44,862 nt of DNA from Thermoflexaceae bacterium (GTDB lineage: Bacteria; Bacillota; Clostridia; Lachnospirales; Lachnospiraceae): the NCBI GenBank assembly GCA_029226085.1, contig JAQXXN010000045.1, positions 1-44,862 of the forward strand. Direction: 5' to 3'. The notes under the pieces were generated by a model. The model was not told where the DNA came from, did no database searches, and was given only the letters and a program-made list of their open reading frames with translations. Numbering within the stretch: the stretch's first letter is position 1; every line of letters begins with the position of its first letter. Below, one piece after another: positions 14,199-41,280 of this stretch. Both the position numbers and the translations under genes were made by a program.

Positions 14199-15002
14199 TT
14201 ATTCCAGTTTAAGAAACTTTGGAATTCTGTTTTCATATGTAGTGAGATATTGAAATCCTGCTTCTTTTAGTATCTCGCATCCTTTCTCTGTTACAAGCCC
14301 TACATGTTCAAGAATATGGGCATCCGAACCGAGGGTAATAATTTCCCCACCCAGTTCACGGTATAATTTCAGAAGATACATATCGGGCATCGTGTCATTA
14401 TGCCCCCTTGCGATTCCGGACAGGTTTAATTCAATTCCTCTTCCACGTTCTATTACCCTTTGAAAGATTCGAACATACTTTTCGCGGTATTCACGCATGT
14501 CTACACGTACTCCGGTCTGTTCATATATATAACGTGAAGGATAGGTAACATGTCCCAGCACATCATATTCATATTCATCCGCCAGTGTATACAGCCACTC
14601 CATGTAACCGTCATATACCACATGGTACTCCGTTTTGTTATAATCATAATCATAGGCATCCTTATCATCCCACATGTTATGAATGGAACCAATGATAAAA
14701 TCCAGAGGATAATCCTTTATAAACTGAAGTGCGGTTTCTTTATTTGCCTGCGGCTGTCCGTATTCCACACCCGCCAGTACCTTTAACCTTCCTGAATATT
14801 CTTCCTTAATGTCAGAAAGTTCCTGATACAGATTTGCACAGTCAAGGATATATCCATATGGTTTATCTGAATAAATATCCATGTGATCCGTTATGGCAAT
14901 TTCCGAAAGTCCTCTTTTTATGGCTGTTTCACAAATATCCCTCAGTTCACACTCTCCGTCAAAGGAATATTTGGAATGCATATGATAATCCACCAAGTAC
15001 AT
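14199..15002 (-). CDS. hisJ: PHP-family histidinol-phosphatase
   Basis: MYLVDYHMHSKYSFDGE, ITDHMD, GSIHNMW, GSDAHILEHVG metal-binding PHP motifs. Confidence 0.85.
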   Translation of the reverse strand: MYLVDYHMHSKYSFDGECELRDICETAIKRGLSEIAITDHMDIYSDKPYGYILDCANLYQELSDIKEEYSGRLKVLAGVEYGQPQANKETALQFIKDYPLDFIIGSIHNMWDDKDAYDYDYNKTEYHVVYDGYMEWLYTLADEYEYDVLGHVTYPSRYIYEQTGVRVDMREYREKYVRIFQRVIERGRGIELNLSGIARGHNDTMPDMYLLKLYRELGGEIITLGSDAHILEHVGLVTEKGCEILKEAGFQYLTTYENRIPKFLKLE

Positions 15003-15027
15003 TTTATACGTCCTTCTTCTTTCTAAT

Positions 15028-15720
15028 CTAATATAATATCTCTTCAATGTACCTTACTTCTTCCATTCTGCTGATTTCAGAAATAATGTCATCATGATTT
15101 CTTTTCTTTCCCAGATTAAGCCGAATCCGAATGTCTACATATTCTTCCCCGACTTTTTTATCCATGGAACAAATCTTAAATCCCTGTTCCTTCATATAAT
15201 CCATCAGGTGGTTTATCCCGTCCGTATCTTGAAGTTCTATCTGAAGTTCAAGGTCACGATTATATTTATCCTGATGTCTGCTGATACCTCCTAAGAATGT
15301 AATGGCGAGCATTACAAGCAGAAATGTAATCACGGAAGAATAGATGTATCCCGCTCCGATGGAAATTCCAAGAACCGCTGTTGTCCATAGTGTTGCCGCT
15401 GTTGTAAGTCCTTTCACATGACTCTTTCCGGTCACGACTATGGTTCCCACGCCTAAAAAACCGATTCCGCTGATAACCCCCTGTGCCAGTCTTACCGGGT
15501 CTCCCGTTCCATATTCCAGAATGCAGTGGATATCCACAATCTGCGCCAGCGCAGAACCCATGCACACCAACGCAAATGTTCGCATGCCTGCAACCTGCTT
15601 TGCGGCACCTCTTTCAATTCCGATTGCCGAGCCCATGACTGCCGCCAGAATCAGTCTGACCGCAACAGACACTTCGTTAAATTCTTCCAGATAACTTAAC
15701 CATTGAAATACTGTCTCCAC
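15028..15720 (-). CDS. MgtC/SapB family membrane protein
   Basis: RLILAAVMGSAIGIERGAAKQVAGMRTFALVCMGSAL...SGIGFLGVGTIV...LTTAATLWTTAVLGISIGAG. Confidence 0.9.
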   Translation of the reverse strand: METVFQWLSYLEEFNEVSVAVRLILAAVMGSAIGIERGAAKQVAGMRTFALVCMGSALAQIVDIHCILEYGTGDPVRLAQGVISGIGFLGVGTIVVTGKSHVKGLTTAATLWTTAVLGISIGAGYIYSSVITFLLVMLAITFLGGISRHQDKYNRDLELQIELQDTDGINHLMDYMKEQGFKICSMDKKVGEEYVDIRIRLNLGKKRNHDDIISEISRMEEVRYIEEILY

Positions 15721-15770: not shown

Positions 15771-16295
15771 TTACATCATTCCCGCAATGACCACACTTGC
15801 GGCAATTCCGGCAAAAGTACTAATTAATGCTCCCGGAAGAGTCCATCTGGTTTTCTTTATTTTTGCAGTCATGAAATAAACCGACATGGTATAGAAAACC
15901 GTTTCCGTACACCCCATCATAATGGAAGCCACCAGCCCCACATAAGAATCCGTTCCGTATTCTTTAAAAATATCAAGAGCAAGACCTGTTGCCGCAGAAG
16001 ATGAAAAAAGTCTTACTATGGCAAGGGGAATCAGTTCTCCCGGAAAATGAAGTGCTTCTGCCACAAATGCAAGATGTTCACATACAAAATCCAGAAATCC
16101 GGATGACCTTAATACCCCCACGCCAACCATGAGTCCCACAAGTGTTGGCATAATATCCACAACCGTTTTCATGCCATCCTTTGCACCTGTTACAAAACTG
16201 TCATATACATTTTTCTTCATGAGTATTCCAAACCCTACAATATAGAAAATCGTAAACGGAATGATATAATCCGATATGTAAACAATAAATTTCAT
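15771..16295 (-). CDS. spmB: Spore maturation protein B
   Basis: MKFIVYISDYIIPFTIFYIVGFGILMKK...PTLVGLMVGVGVLRSSGFLDF...ASIMMGCTETVFYTMSVYFMTAKIKKTRWTLPGAL. Confidence 0.9.
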   Translation of the reverse strand: MKFIVYISDYIIPFTIFYIVGFGILMKKNVYDSFVTGAKDGMKTVVDIMPTLVGLMVGVGVLRSSGFLDFVCEHLAFVAEALHFPGELIPLAIVRLFSSSAATGLALDIFKEYGTDSYVGLVASIMMGCTETVFYTMSVYFMTAKIKKTRWTLPGALISTFAGIAASVVIAGMM

Positions 16296-16296
16296 G

Positions 16297-16345
16297 AAAA
16301 AAGCACCACAGAATGTTTGTTACATCTTATGGTGCTTTGCTTTTT
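16297..16345. terminator. Bidirectional-looking terminator between the GT cassette and spmB; its T tract ends 1 nt before the spmB ATG
   Basis: AAAGCACCA (16300-16308) pairs with TGGTGCTTT (16330-16338). Minus strand reads ...TGGTGCTTTTTTC-ATG(spmB). Confidence 0.75.
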
Positions 16346-16350
16346 TATAT
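16324..16350 (-). promoter_or_regulatory. Weak candidate sigma-E-like promoter for spmB inside the terminator
   Basis: Minus strand GAATA (ATA at 16350-16348) - 16 nt - CATAAGAT (16331-16324), 6/8 against CATACAnT. Confidence 0.25.
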
Positions 16351-16364
16351 TCAATTATTTTATG

Positions 16365-17963
16365 CTATTTATGTCTGACAAAATAAAATATTGCGCCTTT
16401 ATTAAACATATATTCAAATTCATGTTCACAGCACTCTGTCTCTCTTAGTTTGTCCAGAATAATTTCCTGCTCCCAGTCTTCCGTATAAAAGTCCGTATTT
16501 ATTAAAATCACGAAATCTTCACCATCAGCAGGACATTTTGTTTTGTCAAAGTCGACCCATTCATTATATGCAATAAATCTGCTGCCTAACGCTAAATCAT
16601 AATAATTCTGCATCAAGGACCAATCCTCATACCCATAATATATCCAAGGATATTCGCTATACTCTTTTAATATTTCACGCTTCCGATCAAAATCTCCGCT
16701 CCGGTCAATATATCCAATTGACATCTCATTATACTGCGCTGTATACACATTAAACATTAATAAAATTGCAAGCACGGCATAGGACATATAATTCTTATTT
16801 TTTATACGAATATATCCTGCTGCTTTTACCAGTATTAACACTATCGCAACATAACCAACTGCCGATGCCATATAAAAGTACCGGTCGTCTATGATATAAT
16901 CCGGAGTTACATGGGTTATTATTATACCTGCAAACACAGAAGCAGACAGCAGCATGGACATGAACGGCAAATCCTTATCTTTTTTGTATATAAGAAATGC
17001 CAAAGAAACCACAACCAGTATTATACCGATAATGTAATAATCATAGAACATCAGTCTTGACAAACGAACAATACCGGCCAGAATATTATTAAATATCTGT
17101 GTAAGCTGAAAAGCCTTTTCAATTATTGCATCCCCTCGGTATCCTGAAAAAACCTGTGTAATCCAGCGCGGCCAAATAATTGTTGCCGCAACAACTGCCG
17201 ATGCCATTGACGTACCGAATAAAATAATATCCTTCCATTTACGCTTAGTTATGCAGTAAATTGCATATGCTGCCGTAAAACCTACTGCCAGCGTTGAAAA
17301 ATAGTACTGAGTAAGGAATCCACATGTTGTCACACATGCAATCAGAATATGCAAAGCGTACTTTGCTTTTTTATTAATATCCTGTATCAGAATGTATGCC
17401 AGAAGAATATAAAGCATTGCCCATGCTGTCATCATACAATACATCCGGATGAGCATCTGATTGGTAATCATGGATGGCAAAATACATACTGCAATAGTAA
17501 TCATGGACGAAATCACTTTTTTTCGTGTAATCATAAACAGCAGCGCATAGAGCAAAATACAAATTCCAATCAGACAAATCAGATTAACCGATAACCCGAC
17601 CCATTTTGATATACTCGGCCGCATAATTAAAGACATCACATGCAAAGTCAGATAATATATAGGAGGATGTACATTGGTATAAGCGTTGTGTATTGTGCGC
17701 TTAAAAAACTTACCACACTCCGGTGTCATGTCATCGATAACAAATTGAGAATCATACCATTTTCCATACTCAATTCTGGGGCCGACGGAATATGCCGAAT
17801 TTGCCGTAAAATAGGAATATATTTCATCACAGAACCATACTACCTTATATTGACTCCAGTAAAGAAATACTCCTAATACTATTGCAAGCGTTATAAATAC
17901 TGCCAATCCGTTTTTCAAAATCTCACTTTTATTTTTTATCCAAAATTCTTTTATTTTTGTCAT
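16365..17963 (-). CDS. GT39/ArnT-like GT-C membrane glycosyltransferase, paralog C
   Basis: Multi-TM; first-loop WFCDEIYSYFTANS with acidic D-E motif, NVHPPIYYLTLHVMS, FLTQYYFS; C-terminal FYFVRHK. Confidence 0.8.
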   Translation of the reverse strand: MTKIKEFWIKNKSEILKNGLAVFITLAIVLGVFLYWSQYKVVWFCDEIYSYFTANSAYSVGPRIEYGKWYDSQFVIDDMTPECGKFFKRTIHNAYTNVHPPIYYLTLHVMSLIMRPSISKWVGLSVNLICLIGICILLYALLFMITRKKVISSMITIAVCILPSMITNQMLIRMYCMMTAWAMLYILLAYILIQDINKKAKYALHILIACVTTCGFLTQYYFSTLAVGFTAAYAIYCITKRKWKDIILFGTSMASAVVAATIIWPRWITQVFSGYRGDAIIEKAFQLTQIFNNILAGIVRLSRLMFYDYYIIGIILVVVSLAFLIYKKDKDLPFMSMLLSASVFAGIIITHVTPDYIIDDRYFYMASAVGYVAIVLILVKAAGYIRIKNKNYMSYAVLAILLMFNVYTAQYNEMSIGYIDRSGDFDRKREILKEYSEYPWIYYGYEDWSLMQNYYDLALGSRFIAYNEWVDFDKTKCPADGEDFVILINTDFYTEDWEQEIILDKLRETECCEHEFEYMFNKGAIFYFVRHK

Positions 17964-17993
17964 ATCTTCCCTCTTTGATTTTATTGAAGCTTA

Positions 17994-19586
17994 CTACTTA
18001 TGTCTGACCAGATAAATCTTTGCACCTTTGGTAAACAAATAATCAACTTCGTGGTTACATCCTTCTGCATAAAGCAGCCTTTCCAGTATTGCCTCCTGTT
18101 TAGGATAGCTTTCCGTATTAATCATAAAAATAAAATCCTGACCTTCTCCCAAACATTTTGACTCATCAAATTCATTCTGGTCATTATAAACGATAAATCG
18201 GGTTCCCATGGCAAAATCATAATAGTTCTGCATCATCGGCCAGCTCTCGTATCCGTAATACACCCACGGAAGATTTCCATACTCTCTTAACGTTTCCCGA
18301 TTTTGGATAAATTCCCCGGTCTTGTCCACATATCCCATGGACATGTCATCAAATGCTGCCGTAAGAATATTAAATCCTATAACAGCGCACAAAGCAGCAT
18401 TTAATATTTTATGTGCATTTCCTACCGGAAGATATCCGGCACAACTGATTACCATAAGCAGAACTGCTACATAAGCAATTGCAGCCGGCATATAAAAATA
18501 TCTGTAATCCAAATAATATGTTGGTGTAACATGCGTAATAATTAAACTGTAAAAAACTGAGGTTATAAGAAGCATTCCTATAAAAGTAATATTTTTATCC
18601 TTCTTATAGACAAGGAATATAACTCCTGCCACAATCAGAATAATACCTATAATATAAAAATTATAAAACATTAATTTCGGTATACAGGTAAGTCCAAATA
18701 AAATCTCAGTAAAAATCTTAGAAAAATTTGACGCCTGTGAAAAAACTTCTTCCCCACAATATCCTTCAAAAATCTGTTCTGTCCACTCTCCCCATACCAT
18801 AGTTGCAATTGCAACAGACATGACCATGGAGGTAATATATAAACACATCTCTTTCCATCGTTTCTTTATAATGCAGAAAATCGTATGAACAGCGGTAAAT
18901 CCGACAGCAAATACAGCAAAATAATATTGTGTCAGGAAACCTGCCGCTGTCGTCCCTGCAAGTGCCAGATAAAGAAAATATTTAAACCATTTATTAATGT
19001 CCTGCATTACCAGATAACTTAGAAAAACATATAACATTCCCCAAGCTGTAAGCATACAGTACATTCGAATCAGCATTCCATTCGTTAATACGGACGGCAA
19101 TGTTGAAAGAGCCACACAGGCTAAAAGGGCTGTCAATTTTTTACGGCTGATCCAGTAAAAGATTAAATATGCCATAAGACACAGACCCAGCACACAAATC
19201 AAATTAACAGACAAACCTACCCATTTGGAAATACTTCCCTTCATCAATATTGACATCAGACGAATTGTAAGAAAATAAATTGGCGGATGATCATCACCCT
19301 TTACATTATCAATTGTTCTGTTAAACTTTCCCTTGGTTATATCTGCAGACATGTCATCAATTACAAATTGTGAATCATACCATGTCCCATACTGAATTCT
19401 GGAACCCAGACCATACTCTGAATTCGCTGTAAAGAAAGAATAAATCTCATCACAAAACCAGATTATCTTATACCTGCTCCAAAACAAAAATACTCCGGCT
19501 ACAATCACTGCTGCAAGCAGCATGACTAAGATATTCTGAAGAACTTCCTTTCTGTATTTTATATAAAAATCTTTAATTTTTGTCAT
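17994..19586 (-). CDS. GT39/ArnT-like GT-C membrane glycosyltransferase, paralog B
   Basis: WFCDEIYSFFTANSEYGLGSRIQYGTWYDSQFVIDDMS, DDHPPIYFLTIRLMS, FLTQYYFAVFAVGFTA; C-terminal IYLVRHK. Confidence 0.8.
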   Translation of the reverse strand: MTKIKDFYIKYRKEVLQNILVMLLAAVIVAGVFLFWSRYKIIWFCDEIYSFFTANSEYGLGSRIQYGTWYDSQFVIDDMSADITKGKFNRTIDNVKGDDHPPIYFLTIRLMSILMKGSISKWVGLSVNLICVLGLCLMAYLIFYWISRKKLTALLACVALSTLPSVLTNGMLIRMYCMLTAWGMLYVFLSYLVMQDINKWFKYFLYLALAGTTAAGFLTQYYFAVFAVGFTAVHTIFCIIKKRWKEMCLYITSMVMSVAIATMVWGEWTEQIFEGYCGEEVFSQASNFSKIFTEILFGLTCIPKLMFYNFYIIGIILIVAGVIFLVYKKDKNITFIGMLLITSVFYSLIITHVTPTYYLDYRYFYMPAAIAYVAVLLMVISCAGYLPVGNAHKILNAALCAVIGFNILTAAFDDMSMGYVDKTGEFIQNRETLREYGNLPWVYYGYESWPMMQNYYDFAMGTRFIVYNDQNEFDESKCLGEGQDFIFMINTESYPKQEAILERLLYAEGCNHEVDYLFTKGAKIYLVRHK

Positions 19587-19611
19587 ACTCTTCTCCCAAA
19601 GTTTTTATATC

Positions 19612-21210
19612 CTATTTATGCCTGATTAAATAAAATGCTGCACTCTTATTAAATAAATATTCAAATTCATGATTACAGCCAACTGTCTGCTTTAATTTTT
19701 CCAATATTTCCTCTGGTTCATGATAACTATTACTATTAATCATGATAATGAAATCCTGACCACCCACAGGACATTTTTGACTATCAAAATCATTCATGTC
19801 ATTATACACAATAAATTTGCTTCCGAGTGCCATGTCATAGTAATTTTCCATCATTGACCAGCATTCATACCCATAAAACATCCATGGCAGTTCATCATAT
19901 TGTTTTAGTACTTCTCTTTTTTCAAAGTATTCCCTTGTTTTATCAACATATCCCATTGCCATTCCATTATACCAGGCTGTCCATATATGGAAAATCATTA
20001 GCAGAACAATAGTCCCGCTAATGGCACCATTCTGCAATTTTGATACAGGAATGTACTCCATGCAGCTGACTAAAATGAGCAGTATTGCAATATAAGCCAT
20101 TGTCGTTGGCAAATAAAAATATCTTGCATCCATATAATACGATGGGGTAACGTGTGCAACCACCATGCAGTAAAATAGTGATGTACCCAGCAGAATCGTA
20201 ATAATCGGAAGTCTGTCATTCTTTTTTATTATGAGAAAAATTATACCTCCGAGAATTAATAATATTCCTACAACATAATAGTCATAAAAAATTAATTTTG
20301 GCATACAGGTAAACGCATATAGAAGTTCTTTTAATAGTGAAGAAAAATTAAATGCGGAACTTAATACATCCTGTCCACAATACCCCAGAAACATTTGTCT
20401 GAACCAGCTTTTCCAAAGTATCGTTGCAAAGACTACTGCAGAAAACATGGAGATCAGATAATATTTAATATCATTCCAGCGCTTTTTCATTATAAAGTAT
20501 ACACATGATATTGCTGTAAATCCGACTGCAAATACTGCAAAATAGTACTGTGTCAGAAATCCCAGTGTTGTTGTCAGAGATAGTCCTGTATATAATGCTC
20601 TTTTTTTCTTTATAATGTCATTATCACTCAGAATCATGTAACAAAGCAATGTATATAAAACACCCCATAAAGTAAGCATACAATACATTCGAATCAACAT
20701 TGCATTTGTTAAAAAAGATGGAACAATACAGACTGCAACCGATACCAAAAATGCCCATCTCTTCTTTCCCGTTATCCGATAAAATAAAATGTATGTCATA
20801 ATACAAATTGCAATGACACAAAACAAATTAATTGAAAGACCAACCCATTTCGATATACTTCCATCCATTATTATGGACATCAGTCGAATAGCAAGGAAAT
20901 ATACTGGTGGATGCTCATCATTTTTTACATTAACTATCGTCCTGTTAAACAGTCCGTCCGAAGTATCTGCCGTCAGGTCATCCACTACAAATCGTGAATC
21001 ATACCATGTACCATATTGTATTCTTCCTCCGAGACCATATTCTGAGTTAGCAGTAAAAAAAGTATAGATTTCATCACAAAACCACATTACCTTATAGTGG
21101 CTCCAGAATGTAAAAACCCCGGTTACAATTAACACTGCGCAAAAAACTGCCAGTATATGAATCCCTATTCCGTTATCGTTTTTTCTAGACAAATCCCTTA
21201 TTCCTCCCAT
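19612..21210 (-). CDS. GT39/ArnT-like GT-C membrane glycosyltransferase, paralog A
   Basis: WFCDEIYTFFTANSEYGLGGRIQYGTWYDSRFVVDDLT, DEHPPVYFLAIRLMS, FLTQYYFAVFAVGFTA; C-terminal FYLIRHK. Confidence 0.8.
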   Translation of the reverse strand: MGGIRDLSRKNDNGIGIHILAVFCAVLIVTGVFTFWSHYKVMWFCDEIYTFFTANSEYGLGGRIQYGTWYDSRFVVDDLTADTSDGLFNRTIVNVKNDEHPPVYFLAIRLMSIIMDGSISKWVGLSINLFCVIAICIMTYILFYRITGKKRWAFLVSVAVCIVPSFLTNAMLIRMYCMLTLWGVLYTLLCYMILSDNDIIKKKRALYTGLSLTTTLGFLTQYYFAVFAVGFTAISCVYFIMKKRWNDIKYYLISMFSAVVFATILWKSWFRQMFLGYCGQDVLSSAFNFSSLLKELLYAFTCMPKLIFYDYYVVGILLILGGIIFLIIKKNDRLPIITILLGTSLFYCMVVAHVTPSYYMDARYFYLPTTMAYIAILLILVSCMEYIPVSKLQNGAISGTIVLLMIFHIWTAWYNGMAMGYVDKTREYFEKREVLKQYDELPWMFYGYECWSMMENYYDMALGSKFIVYNDMNDFDSQKCPVGGQDFIIMINSNSYHEPEEILEKLKQTVGCNHEFEYLFNKSAAFYLIRHK

Positions 21211-21259
21211 TATACCTCGAATTGCGTAAATGTTTACTCCCCATTCTGCAACTGTTTCT

Positions 21260-21288
21260 ATTATAAATATTGTATCTATTCAAGTCAA
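21260..21288 (-). promoter_or_regulatory. Sigma-A promoter of the GT cassette
   Basis: Minus strand TTGACT (21288-21283) - 17 nt - TATAAT (21265-21260), between spmA stop (21305) and GT-A start (21210). Confidence 0.7.
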
Positions 21289-21304
21289 TAAATCTTATCC
21301 GAAT

Positions 21305-21925
21305 TCATTCTTCCTTTGTTTTATTTTTTATCATGCAATATATAACCGCGGCAAGGGTGCTGACTCCTGTTGCAAGAATGGAAGGTGCCACAATTACAGC
21401 CGGATTCACACTTCCATACTGGCTTCTATACGCTATGATATTAACCGGAATCAGCTGTAAGGACGAAATGTTAATTACCAGAAACGCACACATCGCATTG
21501 CTTGCCGACCTGCTTTTCTCCTGCCAGCTTCCTGCGTGGCGCAGTTTACAGTTATCAACATGGACTTTCTGCAGCTCTTCCATTGCCTTAAGGCCTGCCG
21601 GTGTTGCCGCCCAGCCAAGTCCCAGGATGTTGGCTATGATATTCAGGGATATATATTCCCATGCCTTATGATTTTGTGGTATTCCCGGAAACAGTCCCCT
21701 GATTACCGGTATAATTTTCTTCGTGGCAGCCTTTATCAATCCGGAATCACTGGCAATTTCCATGATGCCCGTCCAGAGTGCCATTACTCCAAGCATGGTA
21801 ATGCATAAGGATACCGCTTCCTTTGCCGAATCCAGTATTCCGTTTCCTACCGCTGCAATATTCCCGGTAAGACTTCCATATAATATTCCCACTAAAATCA
21901 TAAAACCCCAGATATAATTTAACAT
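21305..21925 (-). CDS. spmA: Spore maturation protein A
   Basis: MLNYIWGFMILVGILYGSLTGN...ALWTGIMEIASDSGLI...LNIIANILGLGWAATPAGLKAMEEL. Confidence 0.9.
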   Translation of the reverse strand: MLNYIWGFMILVGILYGSLTGNIAAVGNGILDSAKEAVSLCITMLGVMALWTGIMEIASDSGLIKAATKKIIPVIRGLFPGIPQNHKAWEYISLNIIANILGLGWAATPAGLKAMEELQKVHVDNCKLRHAGSWQEKSRSASNAMCAFLVINISSLQLIPVNIIAYRSQYGSVNPAVIVAPSILATGVSTLAAVIYCMIKNKTKEE

Positions 21926-21951
21926 AAATCCTCTTAAAAGATTTTTGTTAA

Positions 21952-21978
21952 ATTATATGCCGGGGTTTCCCACTCTAT
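21952..21978 (-). promoter_or_regulatory. Candidate sigma-E-type promoter upstream of spmA
   Basis: Minus strand ATA (21978-21976) - 16 nt - CATATAAT (21959-21952), close to the sigma-E pattern ATA-N16-CATACAnT. Confidence 0.4.
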
Positions 21979-21983
21979 TAAAG

Positions 21984-23357
21984 CTATTTCATGTGAAAAG
22001 GCTTCTTATCTTCAATCTCTTTCTTCATATTAACAATATCTTCTTCATACTGGGCAATTCTTGCCTCATATGCCTTAAGCTTCGCTTTGCCTCCTGCATC
22101 CTTACTTCTGACACGGCGCTCCACAGTTTCAATTTCTATTGAATAGGACTTAAGCTTCTGGTCTTTTTCCGTAATCTCCATGTCAAGACGATCCATCTCC
22201 AGCTTAAGTGCCTTCTTCTCATTCATTGCAAGTACACCAAGCGTTGCCATGTGTGCCGCCTTCTCCGTACGTTCCTCCCTAAGCTTTTCAAGCTGATCCG
22301 TAAGTCCCTTTTTCGAATCCAGAAGGGAATTAAGGAATTTCTCTTCTTCTTCCTGTTCTGCAATCTTGCCGCCCACCGTCTTCTGGAATTCTTCATATTC
22401 TGCCTTTACAACCTGAAGCTCTTCATTGGTCCGGTCAATCTTTATGTTCATGTTGACAACAAAATCGTTATATTCCTGCTCCAGTCTCTCATTCTCACGA
22501 CGAATCTTCTCTGCTTCTTCTGCCGCTGCAATTCTTGCTCTTTCTTCTGCCTCACGGCGTTCTCTCTCCGCTCTAAGCTCTGCCTCGCGGCGTTCCTGCT
22601 CTGCACGAAGCTCTGCCTCACGGCGTTCCCGTTCTGCCCGTTCTGCCGCTTCACGACGTTCCCGTTCTAATTCTATCTCAATTCTTCGCTTAACCTCTGC
22701 CTGTACATCCTCCCACTTATTAAGAAGATCTGCCGGTCTTTCCGCACCTGTGACACGGAACTCCCTTCCATCCGGTAATACAAATACCGTGTATGCAGAA
22801 GATGCAAATTCTTTCACATCTGCAATTATCTTCTCAATAATGCTAAGCCATATCTTATCCGTTCCGATGATTTTAAAAATATTCTCATATGCATCCAGAA
22901 TGTCATGTATATTGGAAGAATACTCGGCACAGTACTTATCCAGCTCCATCGTGGCTTCCACATAACGGACATCATTATAGTCTGCGAATCTGTCAACCTC
23001 AAAACGCTCCTTTAAGTCCGTGCATCTTCTTCTGTGCTGCGATACCAGCTCCTGTCGTGCAGAATCCACACAGGCAAGTGCGTCTTCAAACATGTATACT
23101 GCTTCCCTGCTGTTCAACTGTCCCTGTGCTGATAAGACATTCAATGCATCAACCATTGAAGTAACCAGTGCTTCACTTCTAAATCCATAGGTAGCTGCCA
23201 GTTTGACATTCCTTTTTGCACATCGTAATCCTCGTTCAAAGATATCCCTGTATGCCATTCTGTCATCCTGGTTAATATTCCTAAGGGAATTATCGATATT
23301 GATGTTAAACGTTATTTTATTGATGCTTTCAAATTCAGTTCTGGTATGCTGTGCCAT
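21984..23357 (-). CDS. Uncharacterised cytoplasmic coiled-coil protein
   Basis: 457 aa, no TM or signal peptide; globular N-terminal half followed by a long Glu/Arg-rich coiled coil. Confidence 0.75.
   Translation of the reverse strand: MAQHTRTEFESINKITFNINIDNSLRNINQDDRMAYRDIFERGLRCAKRNVKLAATYGFRSEALVTSMVDALNVLSAQGQLNSREAVYMFEDALACVDSARQELVSQHRRRCTDLKERFEVDRFADYNDVRYVEATMELDKYCAEYSSNIHDILDAYENIFKIIGTDKIWLSIIEKIIADVKEFASSAYTVFVLPDGREFRVTGAERPADLLNKWEDVQAEVKRRIEIELERERREAAERAERERREAELRAEQERREAELRAERERREAEERARIAAAEEAEKIRRENERLEQEYNDFVVNMNIKIDRTNEELQVVKAEYEEFQKTVGGKIAEQEEEEKFLNSLLDSKKGLTDQLEKLREERTEKAAHMATLGVLAMNEKKALKLEMDRLDMEITEKDQKLKSYSIEIETVERRVRSKDAGGKAKLKAYEARIAQYEEDIVNMKKEIEDKKPFHMK
22536..22667 (-). 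repeat. Four tandem 33-bp repeats encoding 11-residue (hendecad) units
   Basis: aa 231-274: ERERREAAERA / ERERREAELRA / EQERREAELRA / ERERREAEERA. Confidence 0.85.
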
Positions 23358-23601: not shown

Positions 23602-24645
23602 TTATATCTGTAATGCCATATCGCCGTCTTTAATCCAGCCCATTTTCCGCATGAATTCCGAAACTGCAAGGGTCAATGCTGCCGGAAGAATAAAATGCAT
23701 CAGAACAATCAGGATTAATGCCATGGAAGTGCTCATTCCGTTTCCTGTCATTGCTCCATATGCCGCAATCTGTCCCACAAGACCTGCTGAACCCATTCCG
23801 GAGCCTACCGGAGTACTTACCATCTTAAGCACTGCCGAAGCAACCGGTCCGAGAATTGCACTGGATACAATGGATGGTATCCAGATAATCGGTTTTTTCA
23901 CAATATTAGGAATCTGTAACATGGAAGTTCCAAGTCCCTGTGCCACCAGTCCCCCGAATTTGTTTTCACGGTAGCTTGCCACAGCGAATCCTACCATCTG
24001 ACAACAGCAGCCTATGGTTGCCGCACCTGCCGCAAGACCGGTAAGTCCCATTGATATCCCGATTGCCGCCGAGCTGATTGGCAGTGTAAGAATCATTCCC
24101 ATGAGAACGGAAACAATAATTCCTCCCAGTACCGGCATCTGCTCTACATTTACATTTACCAGGGCGCCAAGCCACTTCATGAATGCAGAAATATATGGTC
24201 CAAGAATTAAACCCACCGCTGCACCGCTTAAGATTGAAAGAAACGGTGTAACAATAATATCAACCTTTGTCTTTCCTGCCACAAGATGCCCAATTTCAAT
24301 GGCAACGTATGCTGCCACAAATGCACCAAGTGGTTCGCCCGGCGCACCAAGCTTAATGGTCTCCGCAACCGCCGGAAATGCTCCAATCATACCGGCAACT
24401 GCCGCAGAAACGGTAACAAGCGGGCCTTCCTTAAACTTACATGCCACACCCACACCGATACCGGCACCGGTAATTGTCTTTGCCACATTGCTGATTGCAA
24501 TCAGATAAGCACCAATACTTCCTCCGATTAATGTACCAATCTGTGCTATAATCGTACCGATGATTAACGTGGAAAAAAGGCCAAGCGCCATTCCGCTTAA
24601 ACCGTCAATAAATATCCTGTTCAGTATCTTTTTTACTTTATCCAT
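23602..24645 (-). CDS. PTS EIIC-like (PTS_EIIC_2-type) membrane transporter without EIIA/EIIB partner; candidate NiaR target
   Basis: Gly-rich polytopic protein FIDGLSGMALGLFSTLIIGTIIAQIG...GAGIGVGVACKFKEGPLVTVSAAVAGMIGAFPAV; no HPr/EIIA/EIIB genes in the window; downstream of niaR. Confidence 0.7.
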   Translation of the reverse strand: MDKVKKILNRIFIDGLSGMALGLFSTLIIGTIIAQIGTLIGGSIGAYLIAISNVAKTITGAGIGVGVACKFKEGPLVTVSAAVAGMIGAFPAVAETIKLGAPGEPLGAFVAAYVAIEIGHLVAGKTKVDIIVTPFLSILSGAAVGLILGPYISAFMKWLGALVNVNVEQMPVLGGIIVSVLMGMILTLPISSAAIGISMGLTGLAAGAATIGCCCQMVGFAVASYRENKFGGLVAQGLGTSMLQIPNIVKKPIIWIPSIVSSAILGPVASAVLKMVSTPVGSGMGSAGLVGQIAAYGAMTGNGMSTSMALILIVLMHFILPAALTLAVSEFMRKMGWIKDGDMALQI

Positions 24646-40671: not shown

Positions 40672-41280
40672 ATGGTTGATTTTAAAAACAGTGAAACAAA
40701 AGATAATCTGATGAGAGCCTTTGCCGGTGAAAGCCAGGCACGAAACCGTTATACATTTGCTGCTGATCTGGCAGAAAAGCAGAATCATTATGCGGTTTCC
40801 CAGGTTTTCCTGTATACGGCAGGTCAGGAGAAGGAACATGCGGAAATCTTCTACAATCATTTAAAAGAGCTTTCCGGCGAAACCATTTTTATAGACGGGG
40901 GCTATCCCGTGGATTTGTCGGAAGATTTATCGTCACTTCTTAAGATGGCACAGCACAATGAATATGAAGAACATGATGACGTATATAGAAAATTCGGTGA
41001 CAAAGCATTGGAAGAAGGGTTTCTTCAGGTTGCACATTCGTTCCGTTCCATCGCCGAGATTGAAAAATACCATGGTGACCGTTTCGGAAAGTTTGCACAA
41101 TATCTTGACGAAAATAAATTATATATATCGGATATTAAAACAGGCTGGATTTGCTTAAACTGCGGATTTATCATTGAAGGCTTTAAGGCCCCGGAAAAAT
41201 GTCCTGTCTGCCAGCATGACAAGGGCTATTTTATCCGTCTTGAGCTTTCTCCGTTTGCCGCAGACAGCCTTCGTTCCTGA
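40672..41280 (+). CDS. Rubrerythrin
   Basis: FAGESQARNRYTFAAD, GQEKEHAEIFYNHL, EIEKYHGDRF diiron ligands; C-terminal CLNCGFIIEGFKAPEKCPVCQH rubredoxin-like site. Confidence 0.95.
   Translation: MVDFKNSETKDNLMRAFAGESQARNRYTFAADLAEKQNHYAVSQVFLYTAGQEKEHAEIFYNHLKELSGETIFIDGGYPVDLSEDLSSLLKMAQHNEYEEHDDVYRKFGDKALEEGFLQVAHSFRSIAEIEKYHGDRFGKFAQYLDENKLYISDIKTGWICLNCGFIIEGFKAPEKCPVCQHDKGYFIRLELSPFAADSLRS

Follow-up and report, generated by a model that had tools for sequence, protein, structure and literature searches.

A cassette of three glycosyltransferase (GT) genes, predicted to have a sigma-A promoter of its own, probably stands in this locus between two independent, hairpin-insulated sigma-E genes, spmA and spmB. 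We give this reading, which is drawn from the sequence, a probability of roughly two in three. The locus lies in a stretch of Lachnospiraceae DNA of 44,862 nucleotides that was analysed as a whole and is called the window below. A broader proposal, towards which we lean only slightly, is that many sporulation genes of the Lachnospiraceae may have self-insulating promoters, in which the untranscribed promoter stretch is also the anti-Shine-Dalgarno (anti-SD) arm of a terminator hairpin.

The features of the locus are listed in Table 1. The five genes follow each other on the minus strand in the order spmA - GT - GT - GT - spmB, as stated in the first-pass annotation, and spmA and spmB are 5.0 kb apart, with three genes, a promoter and a predicted terminator between them, i.e. 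they do not form the adjacent pair expected of an spmA-spmB operon. Misassembly as the cause of this order was ruled out, since G001, an independent genome of the same genus, has a matching order on a single contig (coiled-coil gene - spmA - GT - GT - spmB - MgtC - PHP). In G003, two GT genes are followed by spmB, and the contig starts within the first GT. G002 (L090:376-4473) has the coiled-coil gene, one GT and the PHP gene, and lacks spmA, spmB and MgtC at this place. A further contig, L108 (JAMPBI010000173.1), is titled Alistipes sp. and carries close relatives of the genes of the window's Lachnospiraceae locus; it is probably mislabelled or part of a mixed bin.

Table 1. Features of the spmA-GT-spmB locus, in window coordinates.
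Feature	Position	Strand	Remarks
PHP/HisJ-family gene	14199..15047	-	downstream flank, conserved in G001 and G002
MgtC family gene	15028..15720	-	downstream of spmB; Pfam MgtC, E 7.2e-32
spmB (spore maturation protein B)	15771..16295	-	174 aa; ORF, Pfam Gate E 5.9e-8, homologs
Terminator-like hairpin with T6 tail	16297..16338	-	before spmB, stops 1 nt short of the ATG
Sigma-E-type promoter of spmB, ATA-N16-CATAAGAT	16324..16350	-	motif scan; -10 within the 5' arm of the hairpin
Third GT (GT-C of the first-pass annotation)	16365..17963	-	532 aa, GT-C-type membrane glycosyltransferase, end of cassette; ORF
GT-B	17994..19586	-	530 aa, GT-C-type membrane glycosyltransferase; AF2 and Foldseek
GT-A	19612..21210	-	532 aa, GT-C-type membrane glycosyltransferase, first in cassette; ORF
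Sigma-A-type promoter of GT cassette, TTGACT-N17-TATAAT	21260..21288	-	11/12 consensus matches
spmA (spore maturation protein A)	21305..21925	-	206 aa; ORF, order-wide homologs
Long hairpin over SD and AUG of spmA, then TTTT	21902..21968	-	29-nt arms, 83% complementary; inverted repeat
Sigma-E-type promoter of spmA, ATA-N16-CATATAAT	21952..21978	-	motif scan; partly in the 5' arm of the hairpin
Coiled-coil protein gene	21984..23357	-	upstream of spmA; flank conserved in G001 and G002

The product of spmA matches the Pfam Gate domain with E 1.9e-5, under the gathering score. The GT proteins are indeed paralogs of near-equal length with mutual identities of 53-55%, GT-A being 55% and the third GT 53% identical to GT-B, and the WFCDEIY motif and an RHK C-terminus are common to all three. 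In a tree they share one clade with G001_GT2 and G003_GT2 (support 95/99), while GT1, a second, divergent paralog that G001 and G003 have, is missing at the locus in the window. The copy number at the locus thus varies from one to three within one genus, and there is nothing unusual about the cassette as such, a gene set that varies between lineages. Its GC content (33-37% in the window at 16000-21500) is below that of the flanks (about 40-45%). As for the way in which the cassette might have arrived, the window contains no tRNA that could point to a tRNA-linked insertion, and, apart from the paralogs themselves, no repeats flank the cassette as remnants of a mobile element would, the lower GC being the only such sign.

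The first-pass annotation called the GTs GT39-like, a label that stands with respect to the fold. The AF2 model of GT-B (pLDDT 90.8, pTM 0.90) is a multi-spanning helical bundle of the GT-C type, and Foldseek returned 22 PDB matches at E <= 0.001, including ArnT, OST/PglB, DPY19, ALG12 and Pmt4, with ArnT (5f15) as the best match (E 6.6e-7) and Pmt4 at 2.9e-4. The label does not stand at the level of Pfam, where no GT39 family scored above the cut-off in the three GT proteins of the window: GT-B reached E 0.0029 with PMT (17.6 bits, the cut-off being 22.7), and PMT_2 was not among the matches listed for it. Among the 24 GT homologs, four matched PMT_2 (best E 1.6e-8). GT-A gave a weak match to the NCBIfam LA_3751/3752 putative glycosyltransferase, and searching the PDB sequences with a profile of the GTs returned nothing meaningful. 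Residues D46, E47, H100, P102 and R174-M175-Y176 are invariant across the 24 homologs. The acidic motif D46/E47 comes directly after the first helix (2-37), a position that would agree with the D/E motif in the first extracytoplasmic loop of GT-C enzymes. The window proteins share with ArnT (5f15), PMT/GT39 (Pmt4), PglB and ALG12 the fold and the DE motif after the first helix, and further the HPP motif and a C-terminal mixed domain; they differ from these enzymes in that sequence identity is about 10% and the match to Pfam PMT is under the cut-off. Going by GT-C enzymes in general, the natural reading is that the trio are transferases of the polyprenyl-phosphate-sugar type, which would move a sugar from a polyprenyl-phosphate carrier onto an envelope acceptor.

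It had also been claimed that spmA and spmB are normally encoded side by side. With adjacency defined as a distance of at most 150 nt, this holds for the other families of the order, in which the genes are adjacent in 30 of the 35 genomes that have both (30/36 with either), but not for the Lachnospiraceae, in which 48 genomes have both genes and 15 of these have them adjacent. The non-adjacent pairs of the family include one at 184 nt, 10 at 1-10 kb on the same strand, 5 on one contig with over 10 kb between the genes, 5 on opposite strands and 12 on different contigs. The intervening genes, named by eye from sequence starts, are mutually unrelated; examples are a symporter, DnaJ/DnaK-like genes, and MATE-like and ABC transporters. 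A MATE-like transporter gene is found between spmA and spmB in three other genera (L097, L101 and L102). The first-pass annotation had taken unlinked spm genes in relatives as evidence against an insertion into a sporulation operon, and within the Lachnospiraceae this is what we found, although in the order as a whole the adjacent state is probably the ancestral one.

The promoter motifs are in keeping with separate transcription units. The near-consensus sigma-A-type promoter after the spmA stop, noted in the first-pass annotation, has identical hexamers and the same 17-nt spacer at the corresponding position in G001; together with a terminator hairpin present in three genomes this argues for the predicted independence of the cassette. 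Upstream of the spm genes we found the sigma-E pattern, ATA followed by CATAnnnT, within the range ATA-N15-17-CATAnnnT and at a fitting distance, the -10 being placed at -34 for spmA and at -36 for spmB, with a spacing of 16 in both cases; at spmB this spacing is identical in G001 and G003. The motif occurs at 18 of 53 spmA starts (0.9 expected in shuffles), at 13 of 33 separated spmB starts (0.27 expected), at 1 of 19 adjacent spmB starts (0.2 expected) and at 3 of 182 other genes. Since it is far above chance at separated but not at adjacent spmB, many separated spmB genes would have promoters of their own. The view that the cassette was placed in a sporulation operon is therefore not upheld, as the spm genes of this family are usually separate, and in the window each has its own predicted sigma-E-type promoter. 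In B. subtilis the operon is dacB-spmA-spmB. In C. difficile, spmA-spmB form an operon of the sigma-E regulon (PMC3789822). The window resembles these operons in its homologous genes and in the sigma-E-type promoter before spmA, and differs from them in that spmA and spmB are separate and spmB has its own predicted promoter. A forespore sigma-G/F promoter before spmB was also considered; the agreement of the motif with the sigma-E pattern, and sigma-E control of the C. difficile genes, led us to reject it.

Both sigma-E-type promoters overlap a hairpin. The strong stem-loop with a T6 tail directly before the spmB ATG is, as had been proposed, a likely terminator at the end of the cassette; its 3' arm contains a weak SD (GGTG), the upstream stretch 16240-16370 has a fold z of -2.86, and in G001 and G003 its position and pairing are kept while the sequence has changed. 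The computed cost of opening the spmB start is 18.6 kcal/mol in readthrough RNA and 2.7 in RNA cut at -24. At spmA the long hairpin, also found in G001, folds with -31.3 kcal/mol (21890-21967), and the opening cost is computed as 13.2 kcal/mol in readthrough RNA and 7.2 when truncated, a score of only about 6.0. At both genes, then, a stable hairpin is computed to hide the ribosome-binding site or start in readthrough RNA. We propose that RNA arriving from an upstream gene would carry the full hairpin, which would terminate transcription and hide the SD or start codon, and that transcripts from the sigma-E promoter would have their 5' end beyond the 5' arm, form no hairpin and be translated. 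Because the -10 or the spacer lies in the 5' arm, a gene's own transcript is predicted to lack this arm and thus the hairpin. In the window, GT transcription would stop at the spmB hairpin, and any leakage would be poorly translated. The untranscribed stretch would consist of the -35/-10 spacer and the -10, so that the choice of promoter would set the translation of one and the same coding sequence; sigma-E use, transcription start, termination and translation block are all parts of the model rather than observations.

In order to compare genomes we defined an insulation score as the cost of opening the SD and start codon in RNA beginning 75 nt upstream, minus that in RNA beginning 24 nt upstream. 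A score of at least 6 kcal/mol is reached by 17 of 105 spm starts and by 1 of 182 starts of other genes from these loci. Both this pass mark and the choice of -24 for the truncation date from after examples had been seen, and the sequences counted are related by descent, come mostly from draft assemblies and have predicted start codons. Many Lachnospiraceae spm starts are not insulated. Among spmA, spmB and spoIVA, insulated starts were found in 27 of 68 cases with a co-directional upstream gene and in none of the 37 with a divergent one (p = 8e-7). Pairing between the spacer and the SD, examined at 39 starts, is stronger in cis (-11.9 kcal/mol) than in trans (-8.0), a difference reached in 0 of 5000 permutations; by gene, it is significant for spmB and spoIVA and not for spmA alone (904/5000).

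The design is also seen in spoIVA, with starts placed by protein anchor: 12 of 19 Lachnospiraceae genomes have it as opposed to 2 of 30 from other families of the class, in a family sample that is enriched, since 13 of its 20 genomes were chosen for spm hairpins or for spm starts near the cut-off. Of the seven genomes chosen otherwise (G018, G031, G034, G035, G041, G049 and G060) two pass, namely G041 and G060. With a later start, the spoIVA of G018 would by eye also seem to be insulated. The clearest insulated promoter is that of spoIVA in the own genome of the window (L142 / L289, G000:C73), in which ACCCCTTCCT, within the -35/-10 spacer, pairs with AGGAAGGGGT, directly 5' of ATTTTT-ATG. Little of the design is seen in spoIIIAA, where 3 of 17 reach the cut-off and the start of one of these is doubtful; spoIID and SASP yielded too small a number of starts, or starts in unsuitable positions, for a judgement.

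It is also possible, although we consider it doubtful, that the hairpins are simply terminators of the upstream genes, which in short gaps overlap the next promoter, so that hiding of the SD is an unselected side effect. Several hairpins are followed by T-tracts, insulation is restricted to co-directional neighbours, the gaps before insulated starts are mostly 50-120 nt long, and 15 of 214 co-directional gaps of 45-200 nt in the own genome (7%, partly sporulation genes) also score high. However, the 27/68 rate of the sporulation genes far exceeds this matched rate (p about 1e-9), the anti-SD of spoIVA sits in the -35/-10 spacer across many genera, and the 3' arm of the spmA hairpin of the window lies inside the coding sequence, all of which count against this view. 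A sensing attenuator, i.e. a riboswitch-like element, at spmB is very improbable: the window has no Rfam match, and what is conserved next to the start codon in three genomes, although a stable stem, is a simple stem-loop to which no further domain is attached and which has a sigma-E promoter motif inside.

The other alternative, which is likewise improbable, concerns the cassette: it could have entered an spmA-spmB operon that was functional, and could now be controlled by sporulation and serve to glycosylate the spore or its coat. The GTs do lie beside sporulation genes in three genomes, and adjacency of the spm genes is the common state in other families, but the cassette promoter is of the sigma-A type and distant GT homologs are found on other contigs, many of them in other species. 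A further case is G002, which keeps its GT between the same flanks; homolog searches found neither spmA nor spmB elsewhere in this genome, and SpoIVA and SASP gave no match either, at a genome completeness of 81%. This member of the genus may have lost sporulation, and survival of the GT cassette seems independent of the sporulation genes. Because of G002 the role in a spore glycan, raised in the first-pass annotation, is unlikely. The cassette would most likely decorate the vegetative envelope.

It is instructive to compare the proposed design with B. subtilis sigG (spoIIIG). For this gene a hairpin of 20 or more pairs has been proposed, which would keep readthrough RNA from spoIIGA-sigE from being translated and which cannot form in sigG's own transcript (PMC5942855, citing Masuda 1988 and Sun 1991). 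The arrangement at spmA, spmB and spoIVA resembles the sigG hairpin in the proposed block of readthrough. The differences are that sigG is one forespore gene, whereas here genes with sigma-E-type (mother-cell) promoters are concerned and the arrangement recurs across the family, and that the 5' arm at spoIVA and spmB is located within the -35/-10 spacer or the -10 of the promoter. A literature search covering mainly titles and the openings of abstracts, with few subscription papers, gave no description of the design at spmA, spmB or spoIVA. If true, self-insulation lets spmA, spmB and spoIVA stand behind vegetative genes, and it may explain why the spmA-spmB pair broke so often. It would be a simple and general device by which gut bacteria that form spores prevent the expression of developmental genes located behind active neighbours, it would extend a special case of B. 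subtilis to an entire family and its mother-cell genes, and it would provide a sequence signature for sporulation transcription units in uncultured genomes.

Finally, all 715 starts in 0.99 Mb of the own genome were scored. The ranking is headed by spoIVA (17.3), spmB (15.8), a D-Ala-D-Ala carboxypeptidase (14.8), a xanthine/uracil-type permease (14.0), spoVAA (L276:6792-7412, 13.8), a doubtful ORF (13.0) and spoVAD (L252:778-1797, 12.8), i.e. the top scores are mostly those of sporulation genes. The high values of spoVAA and spoVAD suggest that the device is not confined to mother-cell genes. The carboxypeptidase gene (S11, L316:6153-7400) has a sigma-E-type promoter as well as an insulating hairpin and possibly encodes a sporulation DacB/DacF. 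Within the window, start hairpins with scores of about 10 are also present at 40672 (+), a gene that by eye is possibly rubrerythrin-like, and at 24645 (-), a PTS EIIC gene.
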